The notes under the pieces were generated by a model. That model was not told where the DNA came from. It made no database searches and was given only the letters and a program-made list of their open reading frames with translations. A DNA stretch of 64,000 bases, taken from Planctomycetales bacterium. GTDB taxonomy: Bacteria; Planctomycetota; Planctomycetia; Planctomycetales; Planctomycetaceae. The translations under genes were made by a program, and so were the position numbers. Positions 55,350-61,712 of the stretch are shown here, piece after piece; positions within the stretch are counted from its first letter, which is position 1; each line of letters begins with the position of its first letter. The DNA is taken from NCBI GenBank assembly GCA_026400835.1, contig JAPLOA010000087.1, positions 248,001-312,000 of the forward strand, read 5' to 3'.

Positions 55350-55797
55350 GGCTTTGCCCCGTCATGGATACAAAACAGCGAAAGAACCATTGCTGTGACC
55401 CAGAGTTAGCAGTCCGCATGCCAGACTGCCCGCATTCCTTCAGTGGCAAATTTCGTTGGATTCCTGCAAGAATCCGCTGCGTTTGAACGGGCCAGCCGGA
55501 TCGGAATCGCAACACGTGCTATCGATTCGATGACAAACAAATAGGCCCTTTCACGTGCCCACTGCCGGAGTTGAACGTTGTGAGCCCGCTTCTGACTCGT
55601 CACAATAATAGCCTCAGTGGCCGTCCGATCACCTTCGAGGAAACATGAGGACAGCCTATGAAAAGAAGCGATCGTCAGTTGTGCCTGAGCAACTCTTTCG
55701 TGACGCCGATCGTCGCAGCGGCGGACGCCGAAGGAAAGCGGCCGGGATTTCTGTCACGTCGATGCAACATTTCCTCTGTCTGTCCGGAGATCCAATC
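55350..55797. other. intergenic region between divergent genes
   Basis: About 450 bases between the haloperoxidase-like gene and the DUF1592 gene. The frame of the latter is open back to 55645 but the extension is arginine-rich and not signal-like. No other gene or strong structure was found. Confidence 0.45.
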
Positions 55798-58275
55798 GTG
55801 AAGCCCGCCTTCGCACTTCTCAATGTCCGGCGATGTTTAATCGCGGCGGCGATGGTCATTCTGGCGCGGACCAATGCTGTCTTCGCAGACGAGTCCTTTG
55901 AGAAATTCCTCACGACCCACTGCATCCAATGTCATGGGCCGGAAAAAGTCGAAGGTGACATTCGCATCGACCAGTTGTCTCGCGACTTCCGTCGGGGCAC
56001 CGACACTCATCATTGGGCGGAGGCGATCGACAAGGTTAACAGCGGTGAGATGCCTCCTAAGACGGAACCGCAGCCGACTCAGGATGAGATCGCTGCCTTC
56101 GTGACAGGCCTCGATGCCAGGCTCCGCGAGGGCCGTGCCATGCGCATGGCAATACGTCCGCCAGTTACGCATTATCGACTGAGCCGCGGGGAATACCAAA
56201 ACACCGTCTATGACCTGTTGGGCGTGCGCTATGATCCGACAATGCCCGGTGAACTCAACGAAGATACTTTATGGCATGGCTTCGAACGCATCGGCTCGCA
56301 GCTTACGCTTTCCCCATCGCATATGGATCGCTACTACCGGGCCGCCGGGATTGTGCTTGATCGTGCTTATCCGGCCACATCCGGCGAGGCACGCAAGATC
56401 AGGAAGACGGCTGCGGAACTTCGATACAATGGCGGAAAGGAACAGCAGGAAGCTCTGGATAAGTTTGGCATCAAGAGACCCCTGCGACATCTGCTGTTTC
56501 CTGGTCGAGTTCAAAACGCTCTTTCTACGCACTGGTTCGGAAAGACGGGGCCGGAGCATAGCGGACTTTATCGAATGCGTCTTCAGGCCAGCGGCATAAG
56601 ACCACTCGGCGGACAGCCAGCGCATCTGAGTATCGGCAAAGAAACCAGTGAAGAGACAGTCGATGGTCTGATTGAATTCGACATCACCGCGCCGGAAGAC
56701 AGCCCGCAGGTGTATGAGTTCGAAGTGTTCCTCGAGATGCCGACTCAATTGCATTTCTGCATTGTAGCGACCGATGTCGTAGATCGGCGAGGAGGCGCGG
56801 CATTTCGGAATGCTCTGTCCAGCAGTTCCTACATCTTCACTCATAGCAGCGAAACTTTGCTGCTGAATCCGAACGCACCACAGATGTTCGACGACAAAGG
56901 AAACGGCCTGTTCTCCACTGTGCTGCTCGACTGGATCGAATGGGAAGGCCCCCTGCAGACGGATGAAGAGAGAAGCCGACGAACAGGCGTCGTGCCACCG
57001 GACAACGCGACGGCGGACGTCATCACCGCACATGTGCAGCGATTTGCGGAACGAGCCTGGCGACGGCCGGTCAGCCCTGATGAACTGGCCAACTACGTGC
57101 AGTCCTGCCGCGAGGAACTCGACGCCGGTGCGACGATGGCGGAAGCTTTTCGAGTCTCCTTGCAGGGAATACTCACTTCCAGAAATTTCATCTATCTGGT
57201 CGAAGGCGATCCCGCCGTACGAGAACGCCTCTCGGACTGGGAACTCGCGTCACGGCTTTCCTACTTCCTGTGGAGTTCGATGCCCGATGAATCGTTGTTT
57301 GATGCGGCACGACGCGGTGAGTTGTGTGCAGTGGATGCTGCAAAGTCCTATGCTTTTCTGGGGCAGCACGTGGATCGAATGCTGACCGACAGTCGCCTCA
57401 ATCATTTCATAGATGACTTCTCCCGGCAATGGCTGCAACTGCACCGAGTCGGCATGTTTCCGCCCGACAAGAAGCTCTATCCGGTCTACGATGACTGGCT
57501 CGAAGCCAGCCTTCGTGCTGAGCCGATGGAATACTTCCGCGAAGTCGTTTCTCAGAACCTTCCCGTCTCAAGCTTCCTCGATTCTGACTGGACTATGGCA
57601 AATGCGCGGCTGTGTGATTTCTATGGTCTTCCCGAACCGACGGCGGATGGATTTCACCGTGTCTCGCTGAAGCCGGAAGATCATCGTGGCGGGTTGTTGA
57701 CAATGGGTGCGGTCCTTGGACTGACCTCGGATGGCACTCGTCATCGACCAGTGCATCGCGGCGTGTGGCTCAGCGAGGCGATCTTCAACCGAACTCCGCC
57801 CGCACCTCCGGCCAATGTGGATCCCATTGAACCGGTTCCGCCCACGGGCAATAAGGTGACGATCCGCAAAAGAATCGAAGCCCATGCAAGCAACGCAAGT
57901 TGTGCGGCCTGTCATCGAAACATCGATCCGCTCGGTCTGGCGTTCGATCAGTACGACGCGATCGGACAATGGCGTACTCGCGAACATGTCCCGACCGGTA
58001 TTGGAGAAGATCCTATGGTCGATGCCACCGGAAAGATGCCCGACGGCCGCCCGTTCCAGAACGCCGTGGACTTCAAACGCCTGCTGATCGAAGATCAGGA
58101 CAGGATCGCCCGAGCCTTCATCGAACAACTCTGCACCTACGCCCTCCGCCGAGTCCTTACTGTTGACGACGAAGATGATCTGCAACTGATTGCAGACGAA
58201 GCCCGTAACACCGGATATGGAGTAAGAGACATGATCCGAGCCGTGGCGACGTCAGAGCTCCTGAGGAAAAGATAA
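55798..58275 (+). CDS. DUF1587/1592/1595/1588/1585 (PSCyt3-type) secreted protein
   Basis: 825 aa starting at a GTG at 55798, which has GGAG 8 bases upstream and is followed by a good signal peptide ([20 protein letters not shown], then AVFA). ATGs at 55762 and 55645 are alternatives. Domains: C-x2-CH (CIQCHGP), [23 protein letters not shown] (DUF1587), [20 protein letters not shown] (DUF1595), [19 protein letters not shown] (DUF1592), [19 protein letters not shown] (DUF1588) and the DUF1585 end. It normally stands directly before a DUF1552 gene; here a four-helix-bundle gene bracketed by repeats separates the two (58276-58833). Confidence 0.94.
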
Positions 58276-58278
58276 GCT

Positions 58279-58344
58279 GGTTCTTTGTTCTTCGTTCTTC
58301 GTTATCCAGCAGCAGATTCCAACCAAGAACCAACCACCAGGAAC
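58279..58344. repeat. GAACC-type repeats left of the four-helix-bundle gene
   Basis: GGTTCTTTGTTCTTCGTTC (58279-58297) followed by TTCGTT is the reverse complement type of the GAACC/AAGAAC words, and CCAACCAAGAACCAACCACC (58319-58338) followed by AGGAAC shows the forward type. They begin four bases after the stop of the DUF1592 gene. The right-hand partner is at 58807-58840. Confidence 0.7.
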
Positions 58345-58371
58345 GTCTTTCCCCACCTCGAGAGCAACAGC

Positions 58372-58746
58372 ATGACGATTCGACGCTTTGAAGATATTGA
58401 GGGCTGGCAACTGGCAAGGGAATTGACGAGACAGGTCTATGAGGTGGCAAGACGCGGAGCGTTTGCCACTGACTTTGGTCTCAGGAACCAGATCACACGC
58501 GCGTCAGGCTCTGCAATGCACAACATTGCTGAAGGATTCGATAGCGGGAGCAATGCTGAGTTCGTCAGATTCCTGCGTTACTCCCAACGCTCGTGCGCAG
58601 AAGTTCAAAGCCAGCTTTATGTGGCTCTGGACCACGCCTGCATTTCGCAGGATGATTTTGACCGCATCGACGAACAGGCTGCAAAGACACACGCAAAAGT
58701 TGGCGGCTTCATCCGATACTTGCTGAGTCTTGCAAATCCCCAATAA
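58372..58746 (+). CDS. four-helix-bundle protein (S23/IVP/Avd-like)
   Basis: 124 aa. MTIRRFEDIEGWQLARELTR, VYEVARRGAFATDFGLRNQI, then RASGSAMHNIAEGFDSGSNA and EFVRFLRYSQRSCAEVQSQL are the four-helix bundle family hallmarks (W-x-A, DxGLxxQIxRAxxSxxxNIAEG, F-x-RFLxxAxGSxxEx). The same family occurs as intervening-sequence proteins inside some 23S rRNA genes and as the accessory Avd of diversity-generating retroelements. No reverse transcriptase or rRNA is here. The gene sits between inverted GAACC-type repeats in what is otherwise a DUF1592-DUF1552 pair, so it looks like a mobile cassette. Function of the stand-alone form is unknown; a nucleic-acid-binding role is inferred. Confidence 0.92.
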   Translation: MTIRRFEDIEGWQLARELTRQVYEVARRGAFATDFGLRNQITRASGSAMHNIAEGFDSGSNAEFVRFLRYSQRSCAEVQSQLYVALDHACISQDDFDRIDEQAAKTHAKVGGFIRYLLSLANPQ

Positions 58747-58806
58747 CCAGATCGATATTCGCGAACCTCCATCGAATTGGCAAACGGGCAGATTCGAGCT
58801 CCACCC

Positions 58807-58840
58807 AAAACCAAGAACAAAGAACCAAGAACCATGAACC
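58807..58840. repeat. GAACC-type repeats right of the four-helix-bundle gene, across the DUF1552 start codon
   Basis: AAAACCAAGAACAAAGAACC (58807-58826) continues AAGAACCATGAACC to 58840. It is inverted with respect to 58279-58297. The ATG of the DUF1552 gene (58834) lies within the last unit. Confidence 0.7.
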
Positions 58841-60195
58841 TGCTCTCCCAATCCTGGCTCATCAATCGTCGTCACGCTCTTCGTGCGGCCGGTACCTGCA
58901 TTTCTCTGCCGTTTCTTGAGTGCATGGTTCCGCTCCGGGCCGCGGACACGAACAGCGAGTCGCCTCGCAGAGCCGCCTTCATTTATCTGGCCAACGGAGT
59001 TCATTCGCTCAACTATCAGATTACAACAGCGGGCAAGGATTATCAGTTCTCCCGATCGCTCAAGCCATTGGAAAAACATCGCGACGTCATCACGCCCATC
59101 AGCGGGCTCCATCATCCCGGCAGCCTGGGACATCATCATAACTGCATCAATGTGTGGCTCACCGGCGGAAAGATTGGGCCTTCGGAACGCAACACGATTT
59201 CCGTCGACCAGAAGATCGCCGAGATCACATCACAGCATACTCGCTATCCGTCGCTGGAGATTGCTCTCACCGGAGGATCGCTTGCCTGGACCGCGGACGG
59301 TGTCGGCCTTCCCGCGATGCGTCGCTGCAGTGAGATCTTTGCGTCACTGTTCGAAGAACCCAAAGGTGGCCGGGATGCTCAGAGAAAGGCCCTGCGCCGC
59401 AAAGCCAGTGTGCTCGATGACAACCTGGCGGAAGTACGTCAGCTCGAACAGAAAATGGGAGCGGCCGATAAAGGCCGACTCGACCAGTATCTCACATCCG
59501 TCCGAGAAGCCGAGATCCGCACACGCCGCGCTGATGCCTGGCTGGATACGCCGCTGCCGGTGATCTCGGAGACCGATCGCAAGCGAACGAATCGCGACGT
59601 TGCCGCCACGATGGCGGGCGACTATTTTCGAACGGTTTATGATCTGATTCTGCTGGCATTCCAGACAGACCTTACGCGAGTCGCCACGTTCAGCCTCGGC
59701 GGTGAGGGCGATGCATTTTCCATCCCGGAAATCGGCATTACCGAATCACGCCATCAGCTCAGCCATCACGGTGGAGACCCGGGCTACATGGAGAAGCTCA
59801 CGAACTACGATACCTTCGCGATCGAACAGTTCGGCTACTTCCTGACGCGACTCAGCGAAACCAAAGATCTCAGCGGAAACCCCATGCTGGGCTCCACGAT
59901 GGCCTTGTTTGGAAGTGGCATGACCTATGGACACAGTCACGGCAATGCCAATCTGCCACTTGTATTGGCCGGCGGCTCAGATCTCGGTCTTAAACACGGC
60001 AGCCATCTCGACTTCAATCAGGGTCACTTCCAGGGTTATCAATTGGACAAGCCCGGCGAGCATTATTCGCTCTGCAGCCGCCCCGCTAACCCTGAGGCCC
60101 ACATGAGCAACCTGCTGCTCCTGATGGCGCAGAAGATGGGAGTTGAGGCGGGCGGGTTTGGGGATAGTAATGGCAGAGTAGTTCTTGGTTCATAG
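58834..60195 (+). CDS. DUF1552 domain protein
   Basis: 453 aa. After a short signal-like start ([20 protein letters not shown], an RR-containing Tat-like segment) come the DUF1552 hallmarks: [88 protein letters not shown] and the [14 protein letters not shown] end. This family normally works with DUF1592-type proteins at the cell surface; role unknown. The first codons (MNL) lie in repeat DNA. The C-terminus also runs into repeat: the last residues RVVLGS and stop come from the GTTCTTGGTTC word at 60181. In relatives the protein ends without this tail, which suggests that the end has been replaced. Confidence 0.93.
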
Positions 60196-60205
60196 TTCCT
60201 GGTTC
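60181..60205. repeat. GAACC-type repeat (reverse orientation) at the DUF1552 stop codon
   Basis: GTTCTTGGTTCATAGTTCC (60181-60199) followed by TGGTTC. The stop codon TAG of the DUF1552 gene (60193-60195) is inside it. The inverted partner is at 60485-60513. Confidence 0.65.
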
Positions 60206-60206
60206 G

Positions 60207-60414
60207 TCGCGAAGCGACGGCAGCATATAGCTGCGGGCGGAAGCCCGCAGACAACGCCCCACCACAACACAAGCCGCGAAGCGGCGACAGACCATTTCGA
60301 AGTCGAACACAATGAATCAATCACGAATGCTGTCGCCGCTTCGCGGCTCAATCGCATTTTTCGGGTCTTTCTGCGGGCTGACGCCCGCAACTATTTGCTG
60401 GCATCGCTTCGCGA
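60207..60414. repeat. REP-like inverted-repeat element
   Basis: Three nested inverted pairs define it. The outer arms are TCGCGAAGCGA (60207-60217) and TCGCTTCGCGA (60404-60414). The middle hairpins are CTGCGGGC-GGAA-GCCCGCAG (60231-60250) and CTGCGGGC-TGAC-GCCCGCA (60371-60389). The inner arms are AGCCGCGAAGCGGCGACAG (60272-60290) and its perfect complement at 60330-60348. The right half overlaps the start of the next gene. Such GCGGAAGCCCGC double hairpins are typical REP-type sequences. Confidence 0.7.
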
Positions 60415-61712
60415 TTGATCGTCTCGTTAGGATATCCTGCGTCTTTTTGGGATGGATAGTTCTCACTCCTTCCACTCTCGTCAGCCAGGAACCAGGAACA
60501 AAGAACCAGGAACAATCTACAGAGCCCTTCCGGCCGCAGGCGGGAAAGTTCCCTCCTCTCGAAAACGCCCACACCTACCGCGGTGAACTTGTCTTCGTGG
60601 ATCATCCCAACCGTCGAGGCAGCATTCGGCTGCAGGGATCGGGTATGTTTTTCCGCAACGACCCTCATCCCTTCGCAATGCTGCCGTACGGGATTGTTCG
60701 CTATCATGGGGCCCCTGGCGATCTTCGTGACGTCCCGTTGGGGACAGTGATGCACGCCCATGCGTTTCTTCCACCGGACCCAACAACGTCTTCCGTCCCG
60801 GTTCTGCCGGTGGACAGCAAATCCAAAGACGCCAATCACAATCGAGGAGCCGGCATCGCGCCCGCTGAGAATCATGTGCTGCTTCTGGAAGATGAACCCA
60901 GCTTCTGTCTGCGAAACGGACTTGTCTGGAAACTGAAGGAAGTGGAACTCCAGAACAACGCCGGCATAATCGTGGCCTCTCGCGAACACCGCGAAGGGAA
61001 AGGTGAAAAGCCCGCCACGGAATCTCTGACGTTCGACGCTGCAACGCGTATCTGGCGTGGCCGCGAGATGCTGCTGATTGAAGACATGATCGCTGAAGGA
61101 ATCTGGCCCGCGCAAGGGAAGAAGAATCTGGAAGACCAGGCCGTGTTGCTTGGGATCACCTGGAAGCCCACGCCGGACGGAGTGTTTACTCGGTTCCACG
61201 TTTCCGACATCTGGCTCGATGACGACGCTATGCACCGAGCTGCCAAAAAGCAGACGGAAGTCCACAAGGCCTTCATTCGCAGCCGCTGGATGCCCGCGTG
61301 GATTGACTCCGTCGAGTACGGCAAGTTTGGTCGTGCTTCGGTGACCGCAACTTTGTTTGGCGGAATGGATGCATCGCTCTACGGCGACTTCAAAAAGAAC
61401 GAACCCGCAATAATGAATGCCGTCGAGAACACTCTCAAGCATACTCACGGCGCTTACGGTCCCGCACATATGGCGTCACGAGGCACGATTCTGGATGTCA
61501 TTCAACAGTCCGGCGAAGCTCCCACTGGCAGCAGTGGAATTCAGATCCGTTTCGAGACCGATCTGATCATCGAAGGAATCCGCCCGGGCCGAGTTGTTCG
61601 AATCCGCCCAAACAATTGGCCTCAGGTTCAAGTGCCTCGCGAAGAATTCCTGAACGACGCATCCAGTCTCGAAGAGCGATTCCCGACGCCGGCGATCTTC
61701 CCCAGGTATTAA
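60327..61712 (+). CDS. secreted protein of unknown function, N-terminus encoded by repeat DNA
   Basis: 461 aa from the ATG at 60327 (an ATG at 60312 is also open). The signal segment VRISCVFLGWIVLTPSTLVS lies at about 37-56. The first 25 residues (LSPLRGSIAFFGSFCG...) are the translation of the REP element, and QEPGTKNQEQ after the signal is the translation of a GAACC repeat. The real body begins near QAGKFPPLENAHTYRGELVF and continues with GSIRLQGSGMFFRND, RWMPAWIDSVEYGKFGRASV and IIEGIRPGRVVRIRPNNWPQV, a conserved-looking planctomycete protein with no family I can name. The original start codon may have been displaced by the insertion. Confidence 0.8.
   Translation: MLSPLRGSIAFFGSFCGLTPATICWHRFAIDRLVRISCVFLGWIVLTPSTLVSQEPGTKNQEQSTEPFRPQAGKFPPLENAHTYRGELVFVDHPNRRGSIRLQGSGMFFRNDPHPFAMLPYGIVRYHGAPGDLRDVPLGTVMHAHAFLPPDPTTSSVPVLPVDSKSKDANHNRGAGIAPAENHVLLLEDEPSFCLRNGLVWKLKEVELQNNAGIIVASREHREGKGEKPATESLTFDAATRIWRGREMLLIEDMIAEGIWPAQGKKNLEDQAVLLGITWKPTPDGVFTRFHVSDIWLDDDAMHRAAKKQTEVHKAFIRSRWMPAWIDSVEYGKFGRASVTATLFGGMDASLYGDFKKNEPAIMNAVENTLKHTHGAYGPAHMASRGTILDVIQQSGEAPTGSSGIQIRFETDLIIEGIRPGRVVRIRPNNWPQVQVPREEFLNDASSLEERFPTPAIFPRY
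60485..60513. repeat. GAACC-type repeats inside the start of a coding sequence
   Basis: CCAGGAACCAGGAACAAAGA (60485-60504) followed by ACCAGGAAC. It is inverted relative to 60181-60205 and lies in frame in the gene at 60327-61712, where it encodes QEPGTKNQEQ. Confidence 0.65.

Follow-up and report, generated by a model that had tools for sequence, protein, structure and literature searches.

The window analysed here is a stretch of 64,000 nucleotides from the genome of a Planctomycetales bacterium (assembly GCA_026400835.1, contig JAPLOA010000087.1). Within it, a DUF1592-family gene and a DUF1552-family gene are separated by a spacer of 558 bases that contains a single gene (Table 1). The initial annotation described this gene as coding for a four-helix-bundle protein, and the profile matches bear this out: the product, hereafter IVP, scores 97.8 bits against PF05635 (cut-off 33.8) and 94.7 bits against TIGR02436 (cut-off 24). 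On both sides the gene is flanked by arrays of a heptamer, GTTCTTN/AAGAACN, in inverted orientation, the 5' array beginning 4 nt past the TAA of the DUF1592 gene. The segments 58278-58296 and 58809-58827 form an inverted repeat of 19 nt that is 95% complementary, and when the two flanks are matched in inverted orientation without gaps, the best score is 17; scores of at least 16 were obtained for 1.9% of the flanks of 472 other ORFs and, in comparable planctomycete regions, for 0.3% of 640 random positions. Inverted GAACC/AAGAAC repeats had already been recognized in the annotation, including their distance of four bases from the stop codon; the right array abuts the ATG. Taken as a single word, AAGAACC shows only a mild enrichment in the window (15 occurrences vs 7.8 expected).

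Table 1. Features of the cassette locus and of the adjacent gene-less element in the window
Feature	Positions	Strand	Remarks
Upstream host gene, DUF1592-family (PSCyt/PSD domains; PF07631 and others)	55645..58275	+	Stop codon TAA at 58273-58275
5' array, ~3.5 heptamer units, GGTTCTT-TGTTCTT-CGTTCTT-CGTT on the + strand	58279..58303	-	AAGAACN on the - strand
Further degenerate units, AACCAAGAACCAACCACCAGGAAC, lying between 5' array and IVP gene in direct orientation	58321..58344	+	Match C52:306325-306344
IVP/S23p four-helix-bundle gene, 124 aa	58372..58746	+	PF05635 and TIGR02436 profile matches; AlphaFold2 model
3' array, AACCAAGAACAAAGAACCAAGAACC, inverted counterpart of the 5' array, immediately before the DUF1552 ATG	58809..58833	+	
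Downstream host gene, DUF1552-family (PF07586)	58834..60195	+	ATG at 58834
Gene-less element, 5' array of the window's unit	60181..60206	-	Overlaps the DUF1552 stop codon; no IVP gene
Gene-less element, 3' array	60485..60513	+	Read in frame as SQEPGTKNQEQ within the N-terminal region of the following gene

The 558-bp insert holds no transposase, the IVP protein being its sole coding content, and neither a catalytic residue nor an enzyme was identified in the cassette. The DUF1592/DUF1552 host junction rules out an insertion into a 23S rRNA gene in the case of the window, and none of the loci examined holds at least two of the seven conserved 23S motifs.

In seven congeners (L208-L214), whose DUF1552 orthologues are 82-94% identical to that of the window, the same gene pair is separated by a spacer of 42-117 bp and the IVP gene is absent there. 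These are the empty orthologous sites that the initial annotation had proposed to look for, and they uphold its reading of the insert as a minimal mobile cassette without a transposase of its own, as do the array-to-array homology and the filled and empty plasmid sites presented below. Two of the seven, G004 and G005, have, one gene further downstream, a cassette whose IVP belongs to another clade and whose inverted arrays consist of a 6-mer (GATTAA); at this junction the congeners G007, G010, G006 and G016 have no insert. A solo GATTAA array was also found in G005, in the spacer equivalent to the site of the window's cassette.

The window contains, in addition, a gene-less element located just downstream of the cassette locus (Table 1). 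Between its arms, at 60209-60400, there are several short palindromic blocks (CTGCGGGCGGAAGCCCGCAG, and CCGCGAAGCGGCGACAG with its complement ~50 bases on); they represent another type of small repeat, nested in the same place where the third gene starts. Throughout the window's genome, three-unit arrays gave 48 matches vs 16 for a reversed-pattern control and are concentrated at IVP genes, array sites without an IVP gene amounting to only a handful. Seven PF05635 genes were found in this genome, several of them flanked by a different heptamer. Arrays of AAGAACC/AAGCACC, some four to six units long, stand alone without a PF05635 match at G000:C77:27320-27360, where the array sits between two ABC transporter genes, and at C35:124224-124257, C112:106252-106285, C112:129345-129378 and C45:8126-8152. 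Near another operon on the window's contig lies a PF05635 gene that has decayed, being interrupted by two in-frame TGA codons and having no clear arms (G000:C52:131808-132095, L007).

To measure how general this arrangement is, flanks of 300 bp were compared in inverted orientation without gaps, and a best score of at least 12 was counted as arms. Among 64 planctomycete PF05635 loci, 78% scored at least 12, compared with 3.3% of 640 random positions, and 61% scored at least 16 (0.3% at random positions), while direct repeats reached 12 in 17% of the same loci. Inverted arms were found in 71% of 79 loci from other phyla (3.2% in the control) and in 83% of 35 held-out loci, plasmid loci included (5.5% in the control); when the flanks of 472 other ORFs from these regions were taken as a more stringent control, the figure was 4.9%. 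Overall, ~75% of 178 loci have inverted arms, against 3-5% in the controls, showing that the inverted-array architecture is general at PF05635 loci across bacterial phyla. Around 20-30% of the PF05635 loci lack clear arms, being old copies, differently arranged or located at contig ends. A periodicity of 7 nt dominates the flanks and some loci have 6, 8 or 9 nt; by clade, units of 9 nt were seen at L196, L173 and L176, of 8 nt at L149, L171 and L194, and of 6 nt in G004:C181 and G005:C238. Arms consist of ~4-6 copies, with a median of 4.8 units in the detected arms, a value that may be biased by the detection threshold.

It could be argued that the arrays are ordinary slippage microsatellites, or unrelated solo repeats, that lie beside IVP genes by chance or because of an insertion preference. 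Solo arrays are indeed common in some genomes, and length changes by whole units were seen. Nevertheless, the excess of loci with inverted arms on both sides, the tracking of protein clade by the unit across genomes and the transfer of cassettes from array to array as one block leave this explanation with hardly any probability, and as a general account it is refuted by the held-out set.

The repeat unit follows the clade of the protein, differing between clades and being common within a clade. For loci of different genomes, mean array similarity was 6 below 50% protein identity, 7.4 at 50-60%, 11 at 60-70% and 20 above 70%; when only pairs below 60% identity were considered, the correlation between array and protein was 0.114, and none of 500 permutations gave a value as large. 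The initial annotation had made the presence of the same repeats at other loci a test of its proposal. As far as the GAACC-type words are concerned, they occur only with the protein clade of the window, and because the unit is clade-specific a search for them across all IVP loci fails or would mislead; what recurs across phyla is the array architecture.

Most often, five of the seven positions of the unit are fixed at 80% or more, and the fixed and free positions are common to both arms of a locus (r 0.53 in register vs -0.09 rotated). A unit-by-unit copy between arms was not supported, as shuffled unit order does as well (mean p 0.57). Arms that have the same fixed positions and are not copies in unit order show the pattern expected of recognition-site arrays, which could also reflect, in part, the descent of both arms from one pool of unit variants. 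On the coding strand, the 5' arm is C-poor and G-rich, with G exceeding C in 99 loci and C exceeding G in 13 (61:5 by clusters at 60% protein identity). Such a bias suggests strand-specific recognition or synthesis; it could arise from translation-leader constraints instead of single-strand recognition.

The cassettes of G001:C137 and G054:C49, which belong to different planctomycete families, are 73.5% identical from array to array and show no similarity outside the arrays. Those of G000:C34 and G004:C2 were rejected as evidence of mobility, since they are vertical orthologues. Filled and empty versions of the same sites were found in cyanobacterial plasmids with closely similar flanks. Site 1 is filled in Trichormus (L299) and Scytonema (L333) and empty in plasmids of Aulosira, Nostoc linckia and Tolypothrix (L330-L332), with ~97% identity over the matched flanks; the insert measures 428 bp, lies between a stop and a start codon and has TAA at both sides. 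Between the two filled copies, the left array varies in length by exactly two units (14 bp), and a truncated remnant of the cassette is present in L334. Site 2 is filled in L298 and L335, with a 3-nt spacer in five relatives; site 3 is filled in L341 by a cassette of another unit (GGGAAAA type), the others having 0-3 nt; and site 4, between nrdB and nrdA, is filled in L300 and empty in L339. TAA is duplicated at site 1, and no constant duplication was found at sites 2-4.

These results show that cassettes are present or absent at otherwise intact stop/start junctions and, together with the array-to-array homology, support the view that array-flanked PF05635 cassettes are mobile as one block. 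At a further plasmid junction, some plasmids have gene-less inverted pairs of CAGGAGT-type arrays, with differing interiors, that others lack. As gene-less array pairs also vary, the arms are likely to suffice in cis and the protein is likely to act in trans. A search for carriage by phages returned no match among 50,697 phage records. In G001:C137 (L102), the full cassette is accompanied by a partial second one with its arms, as would result from tandem insertion or from duplication and a later internal deletion.

The host operons are varied and include cas6/cas4, sufB, nrdB/nrdA, conjugation genes, a microcompartment operon and a fatty-acid oxidation operon. Across 112 loci, the IVP gene has the same orientation as both neighbours in 85 and is opposite to both in 8; these counts rest on crude ORF calls, and other adjacent gene pairs share a strand in 66% of cases. 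The sense orientation fits a reliance on read-through transcription, or an RNA step. Values of dN/dS between 0.08 and 0.18 in five pairs indicate that the IVP protein is under purifying selection.

In planctomycetes, the sugar-degradation microcompartment operon (acetate kinase, aldehyde dehydrogenase, aldolase) is an insertion hot spot, carrying IVP cassettes at junctions that differ by genus: G018:C1:6935000-6946000 (L111), G023:C245 (L072), G030:C1:1081000-1091000 (L067) and G032:C269 (L073), with two cassettes each in G018 and G023. In Bacteroidota, IVP cassettes are found in the MarR-FadB-FadA-acyl-CoA dehydrogenase operon, also at junctions differing by genus (L164, L169, L178, L180, L182, L190, L191). 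In the plasmid pPg_01 of Pseudanabaena galeata (L297), cas6 and cas4 are separated by an IVP cassette whose GCTAAAA arrays are long. The 23S rRNA IVP is counted among the associations of CRISPR adaptation in a CRISPR-discovery survey (PMC10910872); associations of this type may reflect inserted cassettes rather than a functional link.

The nearest described element occurs in Coxiella burnetii: a 23S rRNA intervening sequence (IVS) that RNase III cleaves and in which an S23p ORF is bounded by terminal inverted repeats. A passing remark in that account notes tandem copies of the heptamer GACAGAT ahead of the ORF, their number varying with the strain (PMC4990558). The stand-alone form of the gene, set apart in the initial annotation as having no known function, turned out to be the common one and to have its anatomy in common with the rRNA IVS. 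Like the cassettes, 23S rRNA IVSs such as that of Coxiella have PF05635, terminal inverted repeats, a sense ORF and a size of ~0.43 kb, but they lie in rRNA helices and are excised by RNase III, whereas the cassettes described here lie between protein genes of operons. General clade-specific arrays and dispersal are not described in the Coxiella account (PMC4990558).

The likeness to the Coxiella IVS, with its heptamers and RNase III cut, raises the question of whether the cassettes are intervening sequences of mRNAs that act at the RNA level. The arms would pair in the transcript, RNase III would cut the stem and free the operon mRNA of the cassette RNA, spread would take place via RNA, and IVP would have a minor role or be a relic. 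The strong sense orientation (85:8) speaks for such a process, as does the ability of the window arms to form a duplex of -28.7 kcal/mol. However, the arms are not aligned unit by unit beyond the common unit, their mismatches show no preference for G.U (111 vs 132, p 0.2) and the stability of the cassette RNA is ordinary (z -0.77). Moreover, six IVP-bearing genomes have no PF00078 reverse transcriptase, and purifying selection acts on the protein. The tests do not support RNA pairing between the arms as the maintained property, and we regard an RNA-level element as unlikely.

The AlphaFold2 monomer model of the window IVP (pLDDT 95.7) has as its closest solved structure 2gsc (Xcc0516; TM 0.86); it also has the fold of the solved family member 2rld (TM 0.76) and matches Avd more weakly (4dwl, TM 0.72; 8ub7). 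Xcc0516 is described as a homopentamer in a paper cited in PMC4990558. In our view, the elements probably represent a class of mobile cassette in which an IVP/S23p gene lies between inverted clade-specific arrays, the protein recognizing the units and host enzymes moving the DNA. By analogy with its homopentameric relatives, each IVP subunit would recognize one unit of the array, probably when single-stranded; we propose the latter because the 5' arm is C-poor and G-rich. A pentameric ring could bind about five units per arm. Bound IVP would bring both ends together and hand them to host replication or repair enzymes, which would then copy the element into gene junctions. The arms would suffice in cis, IVP could act in trans and its expression would depend on read-through from the host operon.

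A ring that binds repeated units might also serve the host. In a TRAP-like autoregulatory cassette, the ring would bind the leader array in the mRNA and control translation of its own gene and of the operon, movement being incidental. The proximity of arrays to start codons, the C-poor 5' arms and the fixed and free unit positions, which resemble a ring-binding RNA site, are all consistent with this, as is the purifying selection. Nevertheless, such a function leaves the inverted 3' array and the gene-less array pairs unexplained, and the patchy occurrence of the cassettes, even between near-identical plasmids and congeners, in host operons unrelated to one another makes it quite improbable.

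The fold match to Avd and the DGR ribonucleoprotein points to still another possibility, namely, a retroelement-like system in which a reverse transcriptase provided in trans would be the partner of the Avd-like protein, and PF00078 reverse transcriptases do occur in most of the planctomycete genomes examined. However, three of the six IVP-bearing genomes without a PF00078 match are 97-99% complete (G040, G042, G043), and no reverse transcriptase was found among the ORFs neighbouring the window cassette, the matches of this genome being on other contigs. We see this as a very improbable account, and a requirement for reverse transcriptase was rejected, there being no association across 59 genomes. 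Although Avd of diversity-generating retroelements has a related fold and ring-type assembly, its systems include a reverse transcriptase, a template repeat and a variable repeat, none of which is seen in the cassette region, and the window IVP is closest to Xcc0516 (2gsc) and not to Avd.

Our preferred reading, a cassette whose protein recognizes the units, also touches on the dispersed heptamer repeats of bacteria. In the cyanobacterium Sphaerospermopsis (G059), three-unit arrays of the cassette unit AATTGAY gave 462 matches vs 4 for the reversed-pattern control, most of the arrays inspected being solo, and zero matches were found in seven of eight other genomes tested. A replication-strand bias of these arrays was considered and rejected, as an exact-pattern search gave both strands mixed. 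Such dispersal of a cassette unit links the cassettes with the heptamer repeats of cyanobacteria and others. Named examples are TAACTGA of Beggiatoaceae, for which 'no mechanism is evident' (PMC4679880), and GGGAATC/GGGGAYT of Xanthomonas and Nostoc (PMC4692102). STRR-type heptamer repeats are dispersed tandem 7-mers, often of 2-7 units, mostly intergenic and patchy between phyla, and the Sphaerospermopsis unit shows a like dispersal. The reports on them (PMC4679880, PMC4692102) name no cassette or protein and, apart from the Sphaerospermopsis example, the likeness is one of description.

Other small elements offer partial parallels. REP/REPIN sequences with RAYT (PMC3116915) also combine a trans-acting gene with many short cis repeats in autonomous and gene-less forms, but RAYT belongs to the Y1 HUH nucleases and each REP is an imperfect palindrome, whereas IVP has no known nuclease motif and its repeats are tandem heptamers. 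MITEs and insertion sequences resemble the cassettes in their inverted ends, gene-less derivatives and filled and empty sites; the cassettes differ from them in having no transposase and no fixed terminal sequence, their ends being arrays of variable copy number.

In the open-licence literature searched, we found no description of the general architecture, the correspondence between unit and protein, the insertions at operon junctions or the gene-less derivatives; for a link between heptamers and a PF05635 protein, the search gave only the Coxiella remark. With the search confined to open-licence papers, such absence is weak evidence of novelty. A broader proposal, which is conceivable but which we hold with some doubt, is that the cassettes form a new class of autonomous mobile elements spanning many phyla, whose sole protein is a non-enzymatic ring and whose array ends are read one unit per subunit, and that this class is the agent behind the dispersed heptamers and the parent of rRNA intervening sequences. 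The strand bias, in which the G-rich strand points inward from either host end, would also be compatible with a telomere-like addition of repeats to broken host ends.

With the cassette reading, a common protein annotated as 'four helix bundle protein' or S23p gains a testable role, that of recognition factor of a mobile cassette. Three puzzles so far handled separately would be joined: where the S23p-bearing IVSs of 23S rRNA come from, how heptamer tandem repeats arose and spread, and why the fold assembles as a pentamer. Operon spacers with such arrays would have to be taken as insertions and not, by default, as regulatory leaders. Finally, if the element moves with only a non-enzymatic protein, the step that it borrows from the host would be of wide interest.
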